39,875 bases of DNA. It comes from Paenarthrobacter sp. PH39-S1 (GTDB lineage Bacteria > Actinomycetota > Actinomycetes > Actinomycetales > Micrococcaceae). The position numbers were made by a program, and so were the translations under genes. A model generated the notes under the pieces. It did not search any database. It was not told the DNA's origin and saw only the letters and a program-made list of their open reading frames with translations. How positions within the stretch are numbered: position 1 is the first letter of the stretch; each line of letters opens with the position of its first letter. The stretch spans positions 1 through 39,875 of the forward strand of contig NZ_JASISR010000011.1 of NCBI RefSeq assembly GCF_030063245.1, read 5' to 3'. This document shows, one piece after another, positions 2,843 through 39,875 of this stretch.

Positions 2843-2908
2843 CCCAACTAGGTAGCAGCAGGTGCACCCAAAGCGCGTTTTGGGTGCACCTGCTGCTACC
2901 TAGTTGGG
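2843..2908. repeat. Dispersed palindrome copy 1 (28-10-28 hairpin), probable bidirectional terminator
   Basis: The left arm at 2843-2870 (starting CCCAACTAGGTAGCAGCA) is the exact complement of 2881-2908. Two further pairs in the centre give a 30-bp stem with a 6-nt loop. It lies between the convergent UMF1 transporter and dcd, where it could end transcription from both sides, although no T-run follows. The outer 18 nt are identical to the copy at 23283-23348, and the inner stem differs. This marks a repeat family rather than a one-off terminator. Confidence 0.9.
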
Positions 2909-10544: not shown

Positions 10545-11004
10545 GACATTCTCCTGCTCGTTGGTCCCCTACCGGCACTCCGCGAGTCCCGGCCGTAACA
10601 CGCAGCGCGCGCTGTCTACGGCAGGCCCTGATCCGCGGCCACACCCGGGAACAGCTGCGGGTCCTGATGCCGGGTGACCAGTGCAGGGGACTTGATGTTT
10701 GACCCCGCGCGTCCTCGTGAACGGCGACGACGCCGGTATCAGGCCGGTCACCTCAGCACCGTTCAGAGCAGGATGTACAACAGACGGTGGGGGTCTGACT
10801 GCGCTTCCCTTACCTCTCTTGGCAGTCCTGAAGCCGGGCCTACGACCGGTGGCGGAAACGCGGAATGGACGCTTTCAGATTAAGCCCCCGAGGCCGTCAA
10901 AGCACCGGCCAAAATAGAGAAATCTGCTGATCGTGCGGCGCACTCTCGGGCCGCACTCTCGGCGCGCGGACGGTTACCCGCCCGCGGTCCCACGCGTCCC
11001 GGGC
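10545..11004. other. 460-nt stretch without a recognised gene
   Basis: No reading frame looks convincingly coding. A plus-strand segment at 10616-10690 reads LRQALIRGHTREQLRVLMPG and then stops, which could be a remnant of a lost gene, unidentified. A 13-nt near direct repeat (CGCACTCTCGG twice) lies around 10939-10965, next to the MFS gene end. Confidence 0.4.
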
Positions 11005-12363
11005 TCAGCCCGCGGTACCAAGCTCCCCGGTCTCCCTGCGCCGCACGATCAGCACTGGACGCCGTTGGCTCTTCCGGTCAACCCTGAGGGTGAGATGGCC
11101 GCGCCGCGCCAGCACAACGGCGATCACGGCCGCCGCGGCGCCCGGCACCGTTCCGGCGACGACCATGGCCCATTGCGGTCCGAGGTGCTCGGCGAGCGCG
11201 CCGATCAGCGGGCCGCCGATGGCCTGGCCGCCGATCAGCACCATGATATACAGGCTCATGACGCGGCCACGTATCCGGACATTGGTGGAGATCTGCACCA
11301 ATTGGTTGGAACTGGTCAGAAAGGTCAGCGACGCGTAGCCGGCAGCCACCAGCACCGCGCAGAAGATCCACATGCTCGGCGCGGCGGCCGCCAGGACCAG
11401 CAGCATGCAATAACCGCCGGCCGCCCCGACGACGGTGCGCAGCCGCAGCACGGGCCGCCGGGTCGAGGCAACCGCTCCGGCGAGCGCGCCGACCGCCACC
11501 AGCGTGTTCAGCAGTCCGTATCCGCCGGCGCCGGAATAAAAGACAGTATTTGCGTGGGCCGCCATCAACACGGGCAGGCTCATGGCAAAAACAGCAATGA
11601 AACCTGCCATCACGGCGGGCCAAAAGATGGTCGGTTTCCGCATCGCGTAGTCAAGCCCCTCGCGCAGTTGGCCCTTGGATCTGGGGGCGGGCGCCGATCT
11701 GAGCAGATCCCTGGTGCGCAGGCGGGCGAGCGTGCCGACCGTGAAAAAACAGGCCAGGGCATTCACGGCGAAGGCCCAGCCGCCGCCCACCGCGCTGATG
11801 AGCACGCCGCTGATGGCCGGTCCGATCATCGCGCCGATCTGGAAGATGGAGGAGTTCACGCTGATGGCATTGCGCAGCTGAACCGGCCCTACCAATTCGT
11901 TGACAAAAACCTGACGCGCCGGCTGGTCGACGACGGTGACCAAGCCCAGCAGGAAGGCGATGCCGTAGATGTGCCACACCTGGATGGCGCCGCTGAGCGC
12001 GAGCACGGCCATGACCACGGCCAGCACGCCCGCGGCACCCTGACTGATCATGAGGATCATGCGCTTGGAGCAGCGGTCGGCGATGATGCCGCCCAACGGC
12101 ATGAGCAGCAACGACGGTGCGAACTGCATCGCCACCGTAATGCCGACGGCGGTCACGCTGCCGGAGAGCTGGAGCACCAACCAGTCCTGTGCGATCCGCT
12201 GCATCCAGAGCGCGATCACAGCGACCAGATGGGCCACGGCGAAGAGCCTGAAGTTGGGTACCTTCAGCGAGGAAAATGTTTGGCGCCACGGCGGACGTTG
12301 GGCGGCCAGGTCAATTGGAGCGGTCAGGGTGGAAACGCCGGGCAGCGCTGGTGGGGGTGTCAA
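11005..12363 (-). CDS. MFS transporter (EntS/MFS_3-like)
   Basis: A 452-residue, twelve-helix major facilitator. FRLFAVAHLVAVIALWMQRI opens the first helix and AQDWLVLQLSGS follows, typical of the MFS_3 (enterobactin exporter-like) group. The loop motif is GGIIADRCSKR at about residues 92-102. TVVDQPARQVFVNELVG at about 143-159 is also characteristic. These proteins usually export small molecules; the substrate here is not known. The start is a TTG at 12363 with AGGA 5 nt upstream; no better in-frame start precedes the first helix. It is divergent from a LysR gene across a 131-nt region with inverted repeats, so that regulator probably controls it. Confidence 0.9.
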   Translation of the reverse strand: MTPPPALPGVSTLTAPIDLAAQRPPWRQTFSSLKVPNFRLFAVAHLVAVIALWMQRIAQDWLVLQLSGSVTAVGITVAMQFAPSLLLMPLGGIIADRCSKRMILMISQGAAGVLAVVMAVLALSGAIQVWHIYGIAFLLGLVTVVDQPARQVFVNELVGPVQLRNAISVNSSIFQIGAMIGPAISGVLISAVGGGWAFAVNALACFFTVGTLARLRTRDLLRSAPAPRSKGQLREGLDYAMRKPTIFWPAVMAGFIAVFAMSLPVLMAAHANTVFYSGAGGYGLLNTLVAVGALAGAVASTRRPVLRLRTVVGAAGGYCMLLVLAAAAPSMWIFCAVLVAAGYASLTFLTSSNQLVQISTNVRIRGRVMSLYIMVLIGGQAIGGPLIGALAEHLGPQWAMVVAGTVPGAAAAVIAVVLARRGHLTLRVDRKSQRRPVLIVRRRETGELGTAG

Positions 12364-17840: not shown

Positions 17841-18770
17841 TTAACCTGCCATCAGCGTCGGGCGGCGCGTCCGGGTCGGTCTTCGGGCGCGCAGCGCGAG
17901 CTGCACCCTTTCCGCGACCCGCTGCGGTCGGTACAGGACATCAGGGTACTGGATCCGCAGCAGCACATGGCCGGAGATGCCGGCAGCCGCGTCACGCCAT
18001 GGGGCAGACGCGAATTGCCCGGCCGGCGGCCGGCGCTCCAATCCGACGATCTCCGCGACGAGATAACCGTCGATCAGAAAGTGCACCACGCCCACACCGT
18101 GGACCCAGCTTTGGGCCTGAACCTCGAATCCGAACCGCCGGAACAGGATTCTGGCCAGCGTTTCCCACGGCGAATCGGCCCCCTCCTCCACCAGATCCAG
18201 CGCGGTTCGGGCCTTCCCATCACGACTTGCCGGGAGATGTCGACGCAGAACCTCCGGATCCACAAGTCCTTGATTCACCGCCGATTCCACCATGACCACG
18301 GACTCCGGTATGGGCAGGCAGAAAAGCGCATGGATCAGCACGTCTTCCAGCGCGGCCACCGGCGCACCAGTAACGGGGCACGACAGCGGTGCCGCGTGCA
18401 GCACGGTGCGCGGTTCAGGCAACGGAACGGGGTGCGGCCCGGCCCGGGGTGCGGAGTACAGGACCGGTTGCGGCCCCGTTTCCGGACCGCGGAGACCGTT
18501 GCCGACAGCAAGATGTATAAGGCAAGGCTCCGCCACCACCCACAGCCCATACTGCCCGGCGGCGGAGGCACAGGTCAGCACGCCGCGGTGGCGCAGCGCC
18601 TGCACGAACGCGGCGGGGGCGCCGGGAACCGCCAAAATCCCCCGCTCCCGTGTCTGCACCTGCTTCCCCGCGACCGCCCGGGCCAGCTGTGCCGTCGTGA
18701 AACCGCGCTGCACAAGGGCTTCCGTCCGTGCCGCCCCACCAAGGCTCCGCAGAACCTGCTCAACATCCAT
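17841..18770 (-). CDS. AbiEi-N / DUF559-like protein with degenerate nuclease motifs
   Basis: A 309-residue protein built like the abundant actinobacterial proteins with an AbiEi-type winged-helix N-terminus and a Vsr/DUF559-like nuclease C-terminus. The N-terminal part MDVEQVLRSLGGAARTEALV with QRGFTTAQLARAV fits the winged helix, and RERGILAVPGAPAAF the domain end. In the C-terminal part the usual GRVDFLIDG and EVDGxxFH motifs read GVVHFLIDG and EIVGLERR (about residues 235-255), so the metal-binding Asp residues appear replaced. It is probably catalytically dead or diverged. Start choice among ATG 18770, ATG 18782 and TTG 18794 is uncertain. Confidence 0.7.
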   Translation of the reverse strand: MDVEQVLRSLGGAARTEALVQRGFTTAQLARAVAGKQVQTRERGILAVPGAPAAFVQALRHRGVLTCASAAGQYGLWVVAEPCLIHLAVGNGLRGPETGPQPVLYSAPRAGPHPVPLPEPRTVLHAAPLSCPVTGAPVAALEDVLIHALFCLPIPESVVMVESAVNQGLVDPEVLRRHLPASRDGKARTALDLVEEGADSPWETLARILFRRFGFEVQAQSWVHGVGVVHFLIDGYLVAEIVGLERRPPAGQFASAPWRDAAAGISGHVLLRIQYPDVLYRPQRVAERVQLALRARRPTRTRRPTLMAG

Positions 18771-18879
18771 GCCGACAAGCATTCCAAGCCGCAACGCGGA
18801 GCGGCAGCATCGCCCGCCATTATGTGCCCGGCTGCGCCACCGGGGCAGGGTGTGGAGAGAGGATGACCGGATATTGGGC

Positions 18880-19000: not shown

Positions 19001-21016
19001 TTAGTCCATTCCGAGCAGATCAAGCGTCAGCCCGGTGTCGCCGGAGGCGTCCAGCAGTACCGGAATGCCCCAATCCTGCTGGTACAGGTGGCAGGCTGCG
19101 TGGTCTGGGATCTGTCCGTCGGCCGTTTCCGGGCCGTCGCAGGCCGCCGCCCGAGCTGTGATATGCAGGACCCCCTCAGGGACGTCGGCTGAAAGTGTCA
19201 GCGTACGGTGCAGACCAATCGAAGTGCCGCCGCCCGCCGTTAGCAGATCAGGCGGTGTGGAGGAGACCTTCAGCTGCGTCGGGTCGCCCCAGCGGTCGTC
19301 CAGCTTCTGTCCCGTCGGTGCGGAAAAGCGCACCTGCAGGGCCAGCGCGCCGGGTGCCACCGGCGTCTTGGGACGCTGCGTCTGCGCGGCACCCTCGTCG
19401 ACCTGCTGGGCTTCCTTGGGGACCGGCAACCGGACCAGCTGGTGCCGGTTGGCTTCCACCACAATCAGCAGCGGGATGTCGCCGCTGCTGTCGAGCAGCA
19501 CATCGGAAGGCTCTGCGAGCCCGCGGGCAAGGGTGCTCAGTGTCCCGGCGACCGGGTCGAAACGCCGGACAGCGCCGTTGTAGGTGTCCGCGACGGCGAC
19601 CGAACCGTCCGGGAGCACGGTGACGCCCAGCGGGTGCTGCAGGCGTGCCTGCTCCGCGGCTCCGTCTCGGAAGCCGAAGTCGAAGAGTCCGGTGCCGACG
19701 GCGGTTTCCACCGCGACCTCCCCTGCGGCACCTTCCCAACCAGGTCGCACTTTCGGCACGTTAGCGGGCTCATTCGTGCCGGTGCTGCTACCTAGTTGCG
19801 CGGGGGGCGGAGTCGCGAACCGCAGCACCCGCAGCGCGGACGTTTCCGAATCGGCCACCCAAATGCTGCCATCCGGTGCCTCCGCGAGGCCGGACGGCTG
19901 AGCAAACCAGGCCTGACCGGCAGGGCCGTCCAGCAGCCCCTCCAGACCGTTGCCCGCCACGATGGTCACCTGGCCGGTCGCCGGGTCGAAACCAAAGATC
20001 TGATGCACGCCGGCCATCGCCACGGCTACACGGTTAAGCGCCGCCGACCAGACAACGTCCCAGGGGGATGACAGCGCGACCTCCAGCGGACACAAGCCCA
20101 GATCGCCGCCCGTCAGTGCGGCGCCGTCGTCGTCCACGCGGGCCGGGCCGCCCTCCAGCAACCGCTGCACACCGTTTCCGGCCAGCGTCCGCACGGATCC
20201 GTCACTCAGCCGCACGCCGCGCAATCGGTGGTTCACGGAATCGGCGATCACCACGTCGTACCCGGCCTGGGCGGCGACCGCATCCGGGAGCAGCGTCAGG
20301 CCCTGCGGCTCATTGAACTGCGCGGTCTCGGCCGTGCCGTCGGCATGCCCCTTCACGCCGCAGCCGATGGTCCGCCGCACGCTCTGCAGGTCCGGGCCGA
20401 GCTCCACCAGCCGGTGATGTCCGGTATCGGAGACCAGGAATCGGCCATTGGGCAGCGGGAGGACCTTGCCGGGGAAGCGCAGGGCGCCCGACGTCGGCGC
20501 CGGGGCAACGTACGGGCCGTCGCCACGGTGCAGCGTGCCCTTGGCCTCATGCTCCGCGATCAGCTCCGGAATCAGCGTCGCCAACCCGGCCGCGTGTCCC
20601 TCACCGGAAAGATGCGCCACGATGTAGCCCTCCGGATCGATGACCACCAAGGTGGGCCAGGCGCGGGCAGCGTAGGCCTGCCAAGTGAGCAGCTCCGGAT
20701 CATCGAGCACGGGGTGGCGGATTTCATAGCGTTCGACGGCGGCGGCGAGGGCCACCGGGTCGGCCTCATGTTCAAATTTGGGCGAGTGAACACCAACGGT
20801 GACCAGCACGTCGGAGTATTCCTGCTCCAGCGGCCGCAGCTCGTCGATTACGTGCAGGCAATTGATGCAGCAAAACGTCCAGAAATCCAGCAGCACGATC
20901 TTGCCGCGCAGCTGCTCCAGCCCGAGTGTTTTTCCGCCGGTATTCAGCCAGCCGCGGCCCTGCAGCTCGGAGGCCCTGATTCTCAGGTGCGGTGCGGTTC
21001 CTACTGGTGCATCCAC
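19001..21016 (-). CDS. NHL-repeat thioredoxin-like protein (NHLRC2-like)
   Basis: A 671-residue protein. Residues 1-150 are a thioredoxin/TlpA-like domain with FWTFCCINCLH; the redox pair is Cys50-Ile-Asn-Cys53. Residues 165-520 hold NHL beta-propeller repeats (LVSDTGHHRLVEL, VIADSVNHRLRGV, WVADSETSALRVL, VADTYNGAVRRF). A C-terminal beta domain of about 130 residues follows. There is no signal peptide, so it is presumably cytoplasmic. GTG 21016 shares one base with the TAG of the upstream CopD-CtaG gene, so the two are translationally coupled, suggesting a role linked to cytochrome oxidase or copper handling (inference). Between two blades, residues about 406-428 are encoded by a degraded copy of the dispersed palindrome. 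Confidence 0.88.
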   Translation of the reverse strand: MDAPVGTAPHLRIRASELQGRGWLNTGGKTLGLEQLRGKIVLLDFWTFCCINCLHVIDELRPLEQEYSDVLVTVGVHSPKFEHEADPVALAAAVERYEIRHPVLDDPELLTWQAYAARAWPTLVVIDPEGYIVAHLSGEGHAAGLATLIPELIAEHEAKGTLHRGDGPYVAPAPTSGALRFPGKVLPLPNGRFLVSDTGHHRLVELGPDLQSVRRTIGCGVKGHADGTAETAQFNEPQGLTLLPDAVAAQAGYDVVIADSVNHRLRGVRLSDGSVRTLAGNGVQRLLEGGPARVDDDGAALTGGDLGLCPLEVALSSPWDVVWSAALNRVAVAMAGVHQIFGFDPATGQVTIVAGNGLEGLLDGPAGQAWFAQPSGLAEAPDGSIWVADSETSALRVLRFATPPPAQLGSSTGTNEPANVPKVRPGWEGAAGEVAVETAVGTGLFDFGFRDGAAEQARLQHPLGVTVLPDGSVAVADTYNGAVRRFDPVAGTLSTLARGLAEPSDVLLDSSGDIPLLIVVEANRHQLVRLPVPKEAQQVDEGAAQTQRPKTPVAPGALALQVRFSAPTGQKLDDRWGDPTQLKVSSTPPDLLTAGGGTSIGLHRTLTLSADVPEGVLHITARAAACDGPETADGQIPDHAACHLYQQDWGIPVLLDASGDTGLTLDLLGMD
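19733..19800. repeat. Dispersed palindrome copy 3, degraded and inside a coding sequence
   Basis: The left arm at 19733-19760 contains CCCAACCAGGTCGCA (13 of 15 identical to the family core). The right arm at 19775-19800 is, on the minus strand, CAACTAGGTAGCAGCACC, identical to copy 2. The arms pair at about 19 of 28 positions, with a perfect 7-bp inner stem. Overall size (68 nt) matches the two perfect copies (66 nt). The open frame of the NHL protein runs straight through it. Confidence 0.75.
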
Positions 21017-23282: not shown

Positions 23283-23348
23283 CCCAACTAGGTAGCAGCA
23301 CCTGCACTCAAACCACGTTATGAGTGCAGGTGCTGCTACCTAGTTGGG
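23283..23348. repeat. Dispersed palindrome copy 2 (28-10-28 hairpin)
   Basis: The left arm 23283-23310 (CCCAACTAGGTAGCAGCA, then an inner decamer) is the exact complement of 23321-23348. About five more outer positions can pair, including one wobble. The outer 18 nt equal copy 1, while the inner 10 nt differ (CCTGCACTCA here, GGTGCACCCA there) and yet pair perfectly in both. It lies downstream of hup and upstream of CopD-CtaG, so it may also separate their transcripts. Confidence 0.9.
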
Positions 23349-23430: not shown

Positions 23431-23718
23431 CTACTTCTTGGTGGAGACGGCAGCCTTGAGCTTAGAGCCTGCGGTCAGCTTGACGCTGTGGCCGGCGGCG
23501 ATCTGGATGGCCTCGCCGGTCTGCGGGTTGCGGCCCGTGCGTGCGGCGCGGTCGGTGCGCTCAACGGCCAACCAACCCGGGATGGTGATCTTCTCGCCCG
23601 AGGCGACGGAACTCTCGAAAACCGAGAAAAGGGCGTCCAGCACAGCGTTCACTGCGGTCTGGCTGGTGTCAGCCTTGGCCGCGACCTCTGCAACCAATTC
23701 ACTACGATTCTTAGCCAT
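23431..23718 (-). CDS. hup: HU-family DNA-binding protein
   Basis: A 95-residue histone-like protein that bends and compacts DNA as a dimer. It starts MAKNRSELVAEVAAKADTSQ, and the arm region carries GRNPQTGEAIQI with the conserved Pro that wedges into DNA. It lacks the long Lys/Ala-rich C-terminal tail of mycobacterial HupB and ends KAAVSTKK. ATG 23718 with AGGAGG 6 nt upstream is decisive over the longer frame to 23772. It stands alone, separated from rpsN by about 380 nt. Confidence 0.95.
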   Translation of the reverse strand: MAKNRSELVAEVAAKADTSQTAVNAVLDALFSVFESSVASGEKITIPGWLAVERTDRAARTGRNPQTGEAIQIAAGHSVKLTAGSKLKAAVSTKK

Positions 23719-24034
23719 GTATGTCCTCCTGGACGTGGGATGGATGAAGCTTGCACGCCGGTTGCGTGCCAACCACTGTTAGCGAACATACCATTTCTGC
23801 CCCCGCGGACACGGTGATTTCCCCGGAATTTGGCCGATTTCAGCGATTTCCCGGATGTTTTGACGGAATTTCCGCTCAGAGCCAATCTTTTCCCGGCCGA
23901 TGCCGGGCGACGACGGCGGTTCGGTGCAGGACGCCGCAGGTCGACGGCGGCCCGGGTGCGGCCCCGCTGCCGACAACGGCAGCCCTCCGCCGTCGTCGTG
24001 CCTCCTGCCCACTCCCACCGCAGCCGGACAGGCA
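23719..24034. other. Intergenic region between hup and rpsN
   Basis: This holds the hup leader (about 50 nt, with the ribosome binding site) and then GC-rich sequence without a convincing gene. A long-range inverted repeat CGACGACGGCGG at 23908-23919 and its complement at 23987-23998 enclose a 67-nt loop with further GC hairpins; it may be a structured element or low-complexity sequence. Confidence 0.4.
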
Positions 24035-39850: not shown

Positions 39851-39875
39851 CCCAAGTAGGTCGCAGTTTTTGGAC
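39851..39875. repeat. Dispersed palindrome copy 4, left arm cut by window end
   Basis: CCCAAGTAGGTCGCAGTTTT starts 40 nt after the acyl-CoA dehydrogenase stop. It resembles the left arm of copy 3 (CCCAACCAGGTCGCAC) and the family core. The right arm would lie beyond the window. Confidence 0.5.

Follow-up and report, generated by a model that had tools for sequence, protein, structure and literature searches.

Among the described systems, the closest to the palindromes analysed here are the REP and REPIN sequences with their RAYT genes. In the parts of the sources compared, the gene lies beside the repeats, each gene is associated with one repeat class, and repeats also occur without the gene (PMC3116915, PMC8049555, PMC3733652). 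The compared parts also describe RAYTs as settled and long inherited (PMC8049555), and define REP sequences as repeats of 20-40 bp that have a tetranucleotide, GTAG or CGTC, at one end (PMC3733652). A RepRanger row gives thousands of computed REP candidates in Arthrobacter livingstonensis (PMC12306157), so palindromes as such are not new in Arthrobacter; within that source the term 'nuclease' has no occurrence, and the parts compared contain neither a fixed-length family nor a partner gene. The family described below, with its bracketed nuclease-like partner, is REP/RAYT-like and is not a member of the REP/RAYT family. It probably constitutes a two-part system of interspersed palindromes that follows the REP/RAYT logic with an unrelated enzyme, the mechanism being deduced from the sequences.

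The stretch of DNA analysed (the window, 39,875 nt) corresponds to positions 1-39875 of contig C22 in the source genome (G000, 4.65 Mb in 135 contigs). Copy 1 of the palindrome (2843-2908, 66 bp) is located between convergent genes: 19 nt separate it from the stop of an MFS/Atg22-like transporter gene on one side, and 22 nt from the stop end of a dCTP-deaminase-like gene on the other. Copy 2 (23283-23348, 66 bp) lies on the downstream side of an HU-like gene (23431-23772, minus strand), at a distance of 82 nt, and upstream of a CtaG/CopD-like gene, also on the minus strand, whose start, as given by the longest reading, falls inside the palindrome. The first-pass annotation had described both copies as exact 28-10-28 inverted repeats with a common outer 18-mer and different inner 10-mers, and this was confirmed in the sequence. 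It had also pointed to two further members, at 19733-19800 and from 39851 onward, and these were recovered as a copy with decayed arms (copy 3, 19735-19800) and as the left arm of copy 4 (39851-39875, plus strand), 39 nt past the stop of an acyl-CoA dehydrogenase gene. Copy 4 extends past the window end into an N run in the contig (locus L085), apparently an assembly failure at the hairpin.

The window copies consist of a 64-bp core flanked by C and G, which gives 66 bp. With up to three mismatches the outer 18-mer occurs five times in the window and in none of 100 dinucleotide-preserving shuffles. Folding z-scores were -11.43 and -14.86 for the two perfect copies and -1.50 for copy 3, for which 17 of 200 shuffles folded equally well. 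Copy 3 is in frame within an ORF on the minus strand (19001-21016) that codes for a 671-aa thioredoxin-like/NHL-repeat protein, about 22 residues of which are encoded by the palindrome; two congeneric genomes share this insertion (L049, L098), so that three species have it. Rickettsia palindromic elements provide the comparison for such an in-frame copy. An Rfam scan of the window yielded only a tRNA at gathering score. At 10925-11054, two perfectly complementary 18-nt arms separated by 94 nt form another inverted repeat.

A search for the arm core in the whole genome and in other Micrococcaceae revealed that it is not confined to the window sites, and the proposal of a high-copy, REP-like dispersed element was borne out. 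A pattern in which the ends were conserved and the gap could take any of 15 lengths (30-44) matched 26 palindromes in the source genome, all 26 exactly 64 bp long, and the reversed control gave none; when decayed copies were included the genome contained at least 33 copies of 64 bp, a definition that leaves aside a 63-bp copy on contig C135, the gapped copy at the window edge and single 65-bp variants in the family-genome searches. The strict pattern matched 8 of 149 family genomes, in 3 of 32 genera, and a slightly looser one added a further congener (G003), which brings the genomes where the element was found to nine. In the scan of named genomes at least 114 loci were found; the 80 listed with names all belong to Arthrobacter, Pseudarthrobacter, Paenarthrobacter or a Micrococcaceae MAG. 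Of the 84 elements at these 80 loci, 82 measure 64 bp and the other two 63 bp, and six that duplicate A. terrae elements counted as G004 were removed from the arm-mismatch and inner 9-mer counts. Neither copy 1 nor its pattern was found in viral contigs, plasmids or phages.

Elements have CCCAAC/GTTGGG at their ends, which may resemble integron attC sites; the outer 14 bp are common to the genera and the inner part is lineage-specific. The inner 9-mer CTCAAAACG was exact in 15 of 106 arms of the source genus (G000 and G004), with no reverse complement; in the other genera sampled it was absent from all 152 arms and its reverse complement was present in 31. At orthologous sites, the source genus (L031, L035, L045, L081) and other genera (L120, L135, L114, L178, L132, L158, L169) carry the 9-mer in opposite orientations, and the inner motif thus looks as though it had flipped at its site between one lineage and another. 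Sampled stretches of G065 (L321, L324) and G136 (L303) share another palindrome family, 56 bp long (CGTTGC..AGCGG..GCAACG).

Copies 1 and 2 had been placed outside genes, in terminator-like positions, and the part concerning gene ends held for the family when position was checked: elements are mostly close to gene 3' ends, with a median distance of 7 nt to the adjacent 3' end among 137 elements. The extragenic part does not extend to all four window copies, one of which (copy 3) is intragenic. By heuristic gene calls, with six A. terrae elements counted twice, the 137 elements were 62 tandem, 53 convergent, 14 divergent, 2 intragenic and 6 at locus edges. Heuristic calls on 192 distinct elements indicated that open frames entering the element stop mostly at element position 6 (45) or 10 (22). 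Ordinary bidirectional transcription terminators, repeated by chance, would explain the strong hairpins and the 3'-end and convergent placement (53/137), which are also what an intrinsic terminator should have; this explanation is nevertheless very improbable. No T-run was found beside any window copy, as already remarked for the two perfect ones, and terminators would not be expected to show an exact fixed length with a conserved outer motif, to keep mismatched arms, to lie within a gene, to bracket one gene family or to avoid the terminus.

The 3' end of dnaN is the only site with a readable empty-site comparison. The elements of L183 and L196 open with the last codons of dnaN, that of L063 sits 16 bp further on, and two genomes have no element. 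In element-free homologs the native dnaN end reads CCCAACTAG (G065) or CCAAACTAG (NtRootA1), and this site suggests a target that resembles the element end and is not duplicated. A target-site duplication, as expected of a classical MITE derived from a DDE transposon, was not seen at dnaN, where the element-free homologs already read CCCAACTAG/CCAAACTAG, and the flanks elsewhere were too diverged. In the wider comparison 23 loci were first flagged as having an empty homolog, several of them showing a variant palindrome on inspection, and 244 pairs were occupied on both sides.

The inner stem had been said to change while pairing is kept. Covariation between arms was clear: 92 cells were altered on both sides compared with 43.1 in shuffles, and the covariation score was 0.241 against 0.114, neither value being reached in 500 shuffles. 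Perfect pairing, however, is not general, since the ten variable pairs were all matched in 12 of 33 copies and at least four were mismatched in 10 of 33. Mismatches between arms are overdispersed, some mismatched arm pairs are kept between species, and one likely event of arm-to-arm copying was detected (L077/L092). Of the two causes proposed for the matched changes, pairing selection and arm-templated repair, the conserved mismatched arms disfavour strict selection, and together with the copying event they favour episodic arm-templated homogenisation.

Two copies in the source genome, with starts 1,066 bp apart, bracket one gene of about 315 codons, and the orthologous locus of G004 is organised likewise (L038, L106). 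Homologs of this gene were found in all 14 genomes searched, and eight genomes besides the source (G003, G004, G013, G122, G149, G150, G151, G152) have one that is 63-74% identical. In the module, a first palindrome is followed by 62-63 bp that include a DnaA box and then by the gene, about 311-327 codons long, whose stop is overlapped by a second palindrome. In the 11 loci of the clade that includes these genes (clade 1), the upstream palindrome ends 62-63 bp before the start in nine and 47 bp before it in L247, where the start is uncertain; in L188, also of uncertain start, the gene is without its 5' part and no upstream palindrome is present. The downstream palindrome begins 9 or 13 nt ahead of the stop-codon end in 10 of the 11, and in L244 the frame continues through a decayed downstream palindrome. 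The outer motif is a variant one in L246 and L251.

Several paralogous genes have other palindromes on both sides (L256-L259, L267-L270, L272). At L253, L255, L263-L265 and L271 the evidence of bracketing is one-sided or weak, and at L252, L254 and L260-L262, nuclease genes that do have a DnaA box, no bracketing palindrome was found. L266 duplicates L245 and was excluded. Four matches of the homolog search contained internal stops (two in G152, one in G122 and one in G002), and separate translation gave internal stops in L256 only.

The protein has an AbiEi-like N-terminus and a C-terminus weakly similar to Vsr/DUF559/MTES_1575 nucleases of the PD-(D/E)XK type. AbiEi models match 31 of 32 proteins (best E 1.4e-13), and the protein of the source genome matches over residues 16-148 (E 5.8e-12), which places an AbiEi-like domain at its N-terminus. 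Matches in the C-terminus were obtained to MTES_1575 (25/32), DUF559 (9/32, best E among the 32 members 4.4e-7) and Vsr (1/32), and the profile matches PDB 3hrl, an endonuclease-like protein (E=4.9e-4). The likeness to these nucleases resides in the C-terminal stretch PDL...EYDG..H and in these weak family and PDB matches, and the glutamate of the motif is a glutamine in several paralogs. The source-genome protein differs from established members in scoring under the curated Pfam and NCBIfam cut-offs (MTES_1575, 20.9 vs 38.2 bits; vsr, 21.3 vs 97.85), in the additional AbiEi-like N-terminus and in its palindrome partners. Structure prediction from three sequences gave no usable model (mean pLDDT 41.1), and a search for viral relatives returned 14 pattern matches, none of them confirmed.

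In the compared part of the source, AbiEi of the AbiE type IV toxin-antitoxin system reportedly binds to, and represses from, long inverted repeats that precede its own gene (PMC3985639), and binding of the palindromes by the partner protein is, for this reason, a natural guess. The likeness to AbiE comprises the N-terminal similarity (31/32) and the presence of long inverted repeats ahead of the gene (PMC3985639, in the same part); the differences are the nuclease-like C-terminus and palindromes that flank both sides of the gene and are scattered over the genome. A 317-aa protein encoded within the window (17841-18794, minus strand) matches AbiEi weakly (E 2e-4) and the nuclease-family profile distantly; no exact DnaA box was found in the window and no long palindrome beside this gene, a possible stationary relative.

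Palindrome labels, assigned by us from the flanking palindromes of each locus, follow the protein tree: all 11 proteins labelled CCAACT are in one clade (support 100/100) and all three labelled CGATTGCTCCGT in another (100/100). The proteins of the source genus form their own sub-clade (98/94), which parallels the change of the inner motif. In the clades that could be read, each protein clade is accompanied in these sequences by one palindrome family. The three genomes with a clade-2 gene contain 4, 8 and 9 clade-2 palindromes, 2, 3 and 2 of which are at the gene itself, all of one length; among the genomes without such a gene, one was found in G151 and none in the other ten. Clade-1 palindromes are present without a close gene homolog (best identity 35-41%) in G065 (33 copies), G136 (12), G002 (7) and G057 (4). 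The clade-1 gene looks long settled: nine genomes have a single close homolog apiece, and the locus is the same in several species (L188 compared with L246, L247, L249 and L251).

Homing nucleases of the Vsr-like type are known, and a nuclease gene that inserts into pre-existing palindromes would acquire two flanking copies while something else spreads the palindromes. Such homing would agree with the Vsr-like domain, the two flanking copies and the single close homolog per genome. It is an improbable explanation, since homing into a target would not by itself account for different nuclease clades having different palindrome families, and, for both families in which copies were counted, most genomes with scattered palindromes also have the gene.

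An exact, co-oriented DnaA box (TGTGGATAA) starts 31-49 nt upstream of the gene start in 26 of 31 homologs; of the other homologs, one has the box reversed, two have it with a single mismatch and two, with L188 counted among them, are without it. Exact boxes number 11 in the 904 kb of background sequence, of which six belong to two dnaN-covering loci and two are at these same genes.

The distribution of the palindromes along the chromosome was analysed in G065 and NtRootA1, which begin at dnaA, and in G136; up to two mismatches were allowed in G065 and G136, and an exact looser pattern was used for NtRootA1. With bounds derived from the copy positions themselves, the G065 interval 1.484-3.221 Mb, 38% of the chromosome, contains none of the 33 copies and 29 of 56 tRNA genes, and the NtRootA1 interval 1.397-4.049 Mb contains one of 39 copies and 30 of 53 tRNA genes. 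Beyond 60% of the dnaA-terminus distance, a cut-off that like the other boundaries was picked after the positions were known, there are 2/33 copies against 29/56 tRNA genes in G065 (Fisher 6.7e-6; 0.0028 with tRNA clusters merged) and 1/39 against 23/53 in NtRootA1 (Fisher 5.8e-6; 0.0016 with clusters merged). Beyond the half-way point the values were 7/33 against 36/56 and 2/39 against 30/53, respectively. Without any cut-off the elements were non-uniform (KS 2.0e-4 in G065 and 2.7e-8 in NtRootA1). In G136, whose contig start is not at dnaA, none of 12 copies is in 1.264-2.916 Mb, and the sampled GC skew, which is noisy, changes sign mostly between 1.9 and 2.1 Mb. Other long palindromes do occur in the terminus half, so palindromes as such are not missing there, and terminus avoidance may be a trait of this palindrome family only. 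We infer that the DnaA box and the avoidance of the terminus are linked.

The sites of the nucleoid-occlusion factors Noc and SlmA are palindromic and missing from the terminus region, and exclusion from this region is shared by the present elements (2/33 in G065 and 1/39 in NtRootA1 beyond 60%). The palindromes could thus be binding sites kept by selection, either for the AbiEi-like protein or for a chromosome-organising factor, forming a regulon or a nucleoid-occlusion-like system in which the gene-flanking copies are operators and nothing is mobile today. The terminus avoidance and the conservation of the outer motif and length across genera, and of many sites between species, fit this explanation, as does the report, in the part of the source compared, that AbiEi represses from inverted repeats (PMC3985639). 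It is still unlikely: the elements adjoin gene 3' ends (median 7 nt) with few between divergent genes (14/137), one copy is within coding sequence, the downstream palindrome of each gene is outside any operator position, and site occupancy varies among congeners. The elements further differ from Noc and SlmA sites in their length of 66 bp, in their usual position at the ends of genes and in their link with a nuclease-like gene that they bracket.

Many copies are at orthologous sites in different species, which implies slow turnover. At the site of copy 1, G004 has 12 bp and no element, none was seen in G003, and G001 and G002 contain nuclease genes that belong to other clades and are accompanied by repeats of their own; in the G001 insert (L234, L241), many short repeats containing GTCGACACTCG flank the nuclease gene, with no clean palindrome pair. 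A different site is occupied by a clade-1 palindrome in one species and by a clade-2 palindrome in another (L175/L142). Outside the family, a DUF559 protein of Tsukamurella, which belongs to another order, is 25% identical and is encoded between two 64-bp palindromes; this palindrome occurs at 19 places (both strands, flanking copies included) in eight Tsukamurella tyrosinosolvens records, and no DnaA box was found at the gene. In Arthrobacter ERGS1:01 a DnaA box accompanies a homolog that is flanked by palindromes on either side, and no clear palindrome pair was found at two other Tsukamurella homologs or at a Nonomuraea homolog.

The system resembles REP/REPIN-RAYT in its dispersed extragenic palindromes and in the repeats that bracket a single-copy, long-inherited gene, with a different enzyme in that position. 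It differs in the AbiEi/Vsr-DUF559-like partner, the DnaA box and the terminus avoidance, and the elements, with ends CCCAAC/GTTGGG and 66 bp, lack the GTAG or CGTC tetranucleotide and exceed the 20-40 bp of REP sequences. The first-pass annotation had anticipated a REP-associated tyrosine transposase as the partner, and this did not hold, the AbiEi/Vsr-DUF559-like gene being bracketed instead: of the 149 family genomes 7 have PF01797, and of the nine element genomes just one (G000) does, so a Y1 transposase is not associated with the family. The Y1_Tnp gene of the source genome (G000:C47:113437-113799) is in a 3.4-kb locus (L223) that contains one other 50-bp palindrome and in which no copy of the family palindrome was found. 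The system appears to be of a kind not previously recognised: its partner protein is unrelated to REP transposases, and among the open-access papers listed by the searches none was found to connect dispersed palindromes with DUF559/Vsr-like or AbiEi-like proteins.

At the level of sequence the analysis establishes the fixed-length family, the bracketed gene, its DnaA box, the avoidance of the terminus and arms that are both conserved and homogenised. On the preferred reading as a two-part palindrome system, the 66-bp palindromes would be the dispersed, gene-less partners of the palindrome-gene-palindrome module. The partner protein would bind its own palindrome and nick or cut there, which would spread or overwrite palindromes in trans; DnaA would couple expression of the gene to replication initiation, and with it the action to early-replicated DNA; and template switching at the hairpin would copy one arm onto the other. 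More tentatively, and with less than even confidence, these may be selfish palindromes timed by replication, in which a nuclease of the AbiEi-Vsr-like type, switched on through the DnaA box at the start of replication, inserts copies of the 66-bp palindrome cognate to it into DNA just replicated on the origin side and leaves the terminus empty, the arms being rewritten by hairpin template switching and many nuclease clades with their own palindromes coexisting across Actinomycetota.

Such a two-part system would mean that populations of REP-like palindromes arose with an unrelated enzyme, and a role would be available for unexplained DUF559 and hypothetical proteins of Micrococcaceae, Tsukamurella and Nonomuraea. 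The palindromes would also constitute a natural mark of replication timing on the bacterial chromosome, and the system makes it testable whether palindrome arms stay matched through selection or through copying.
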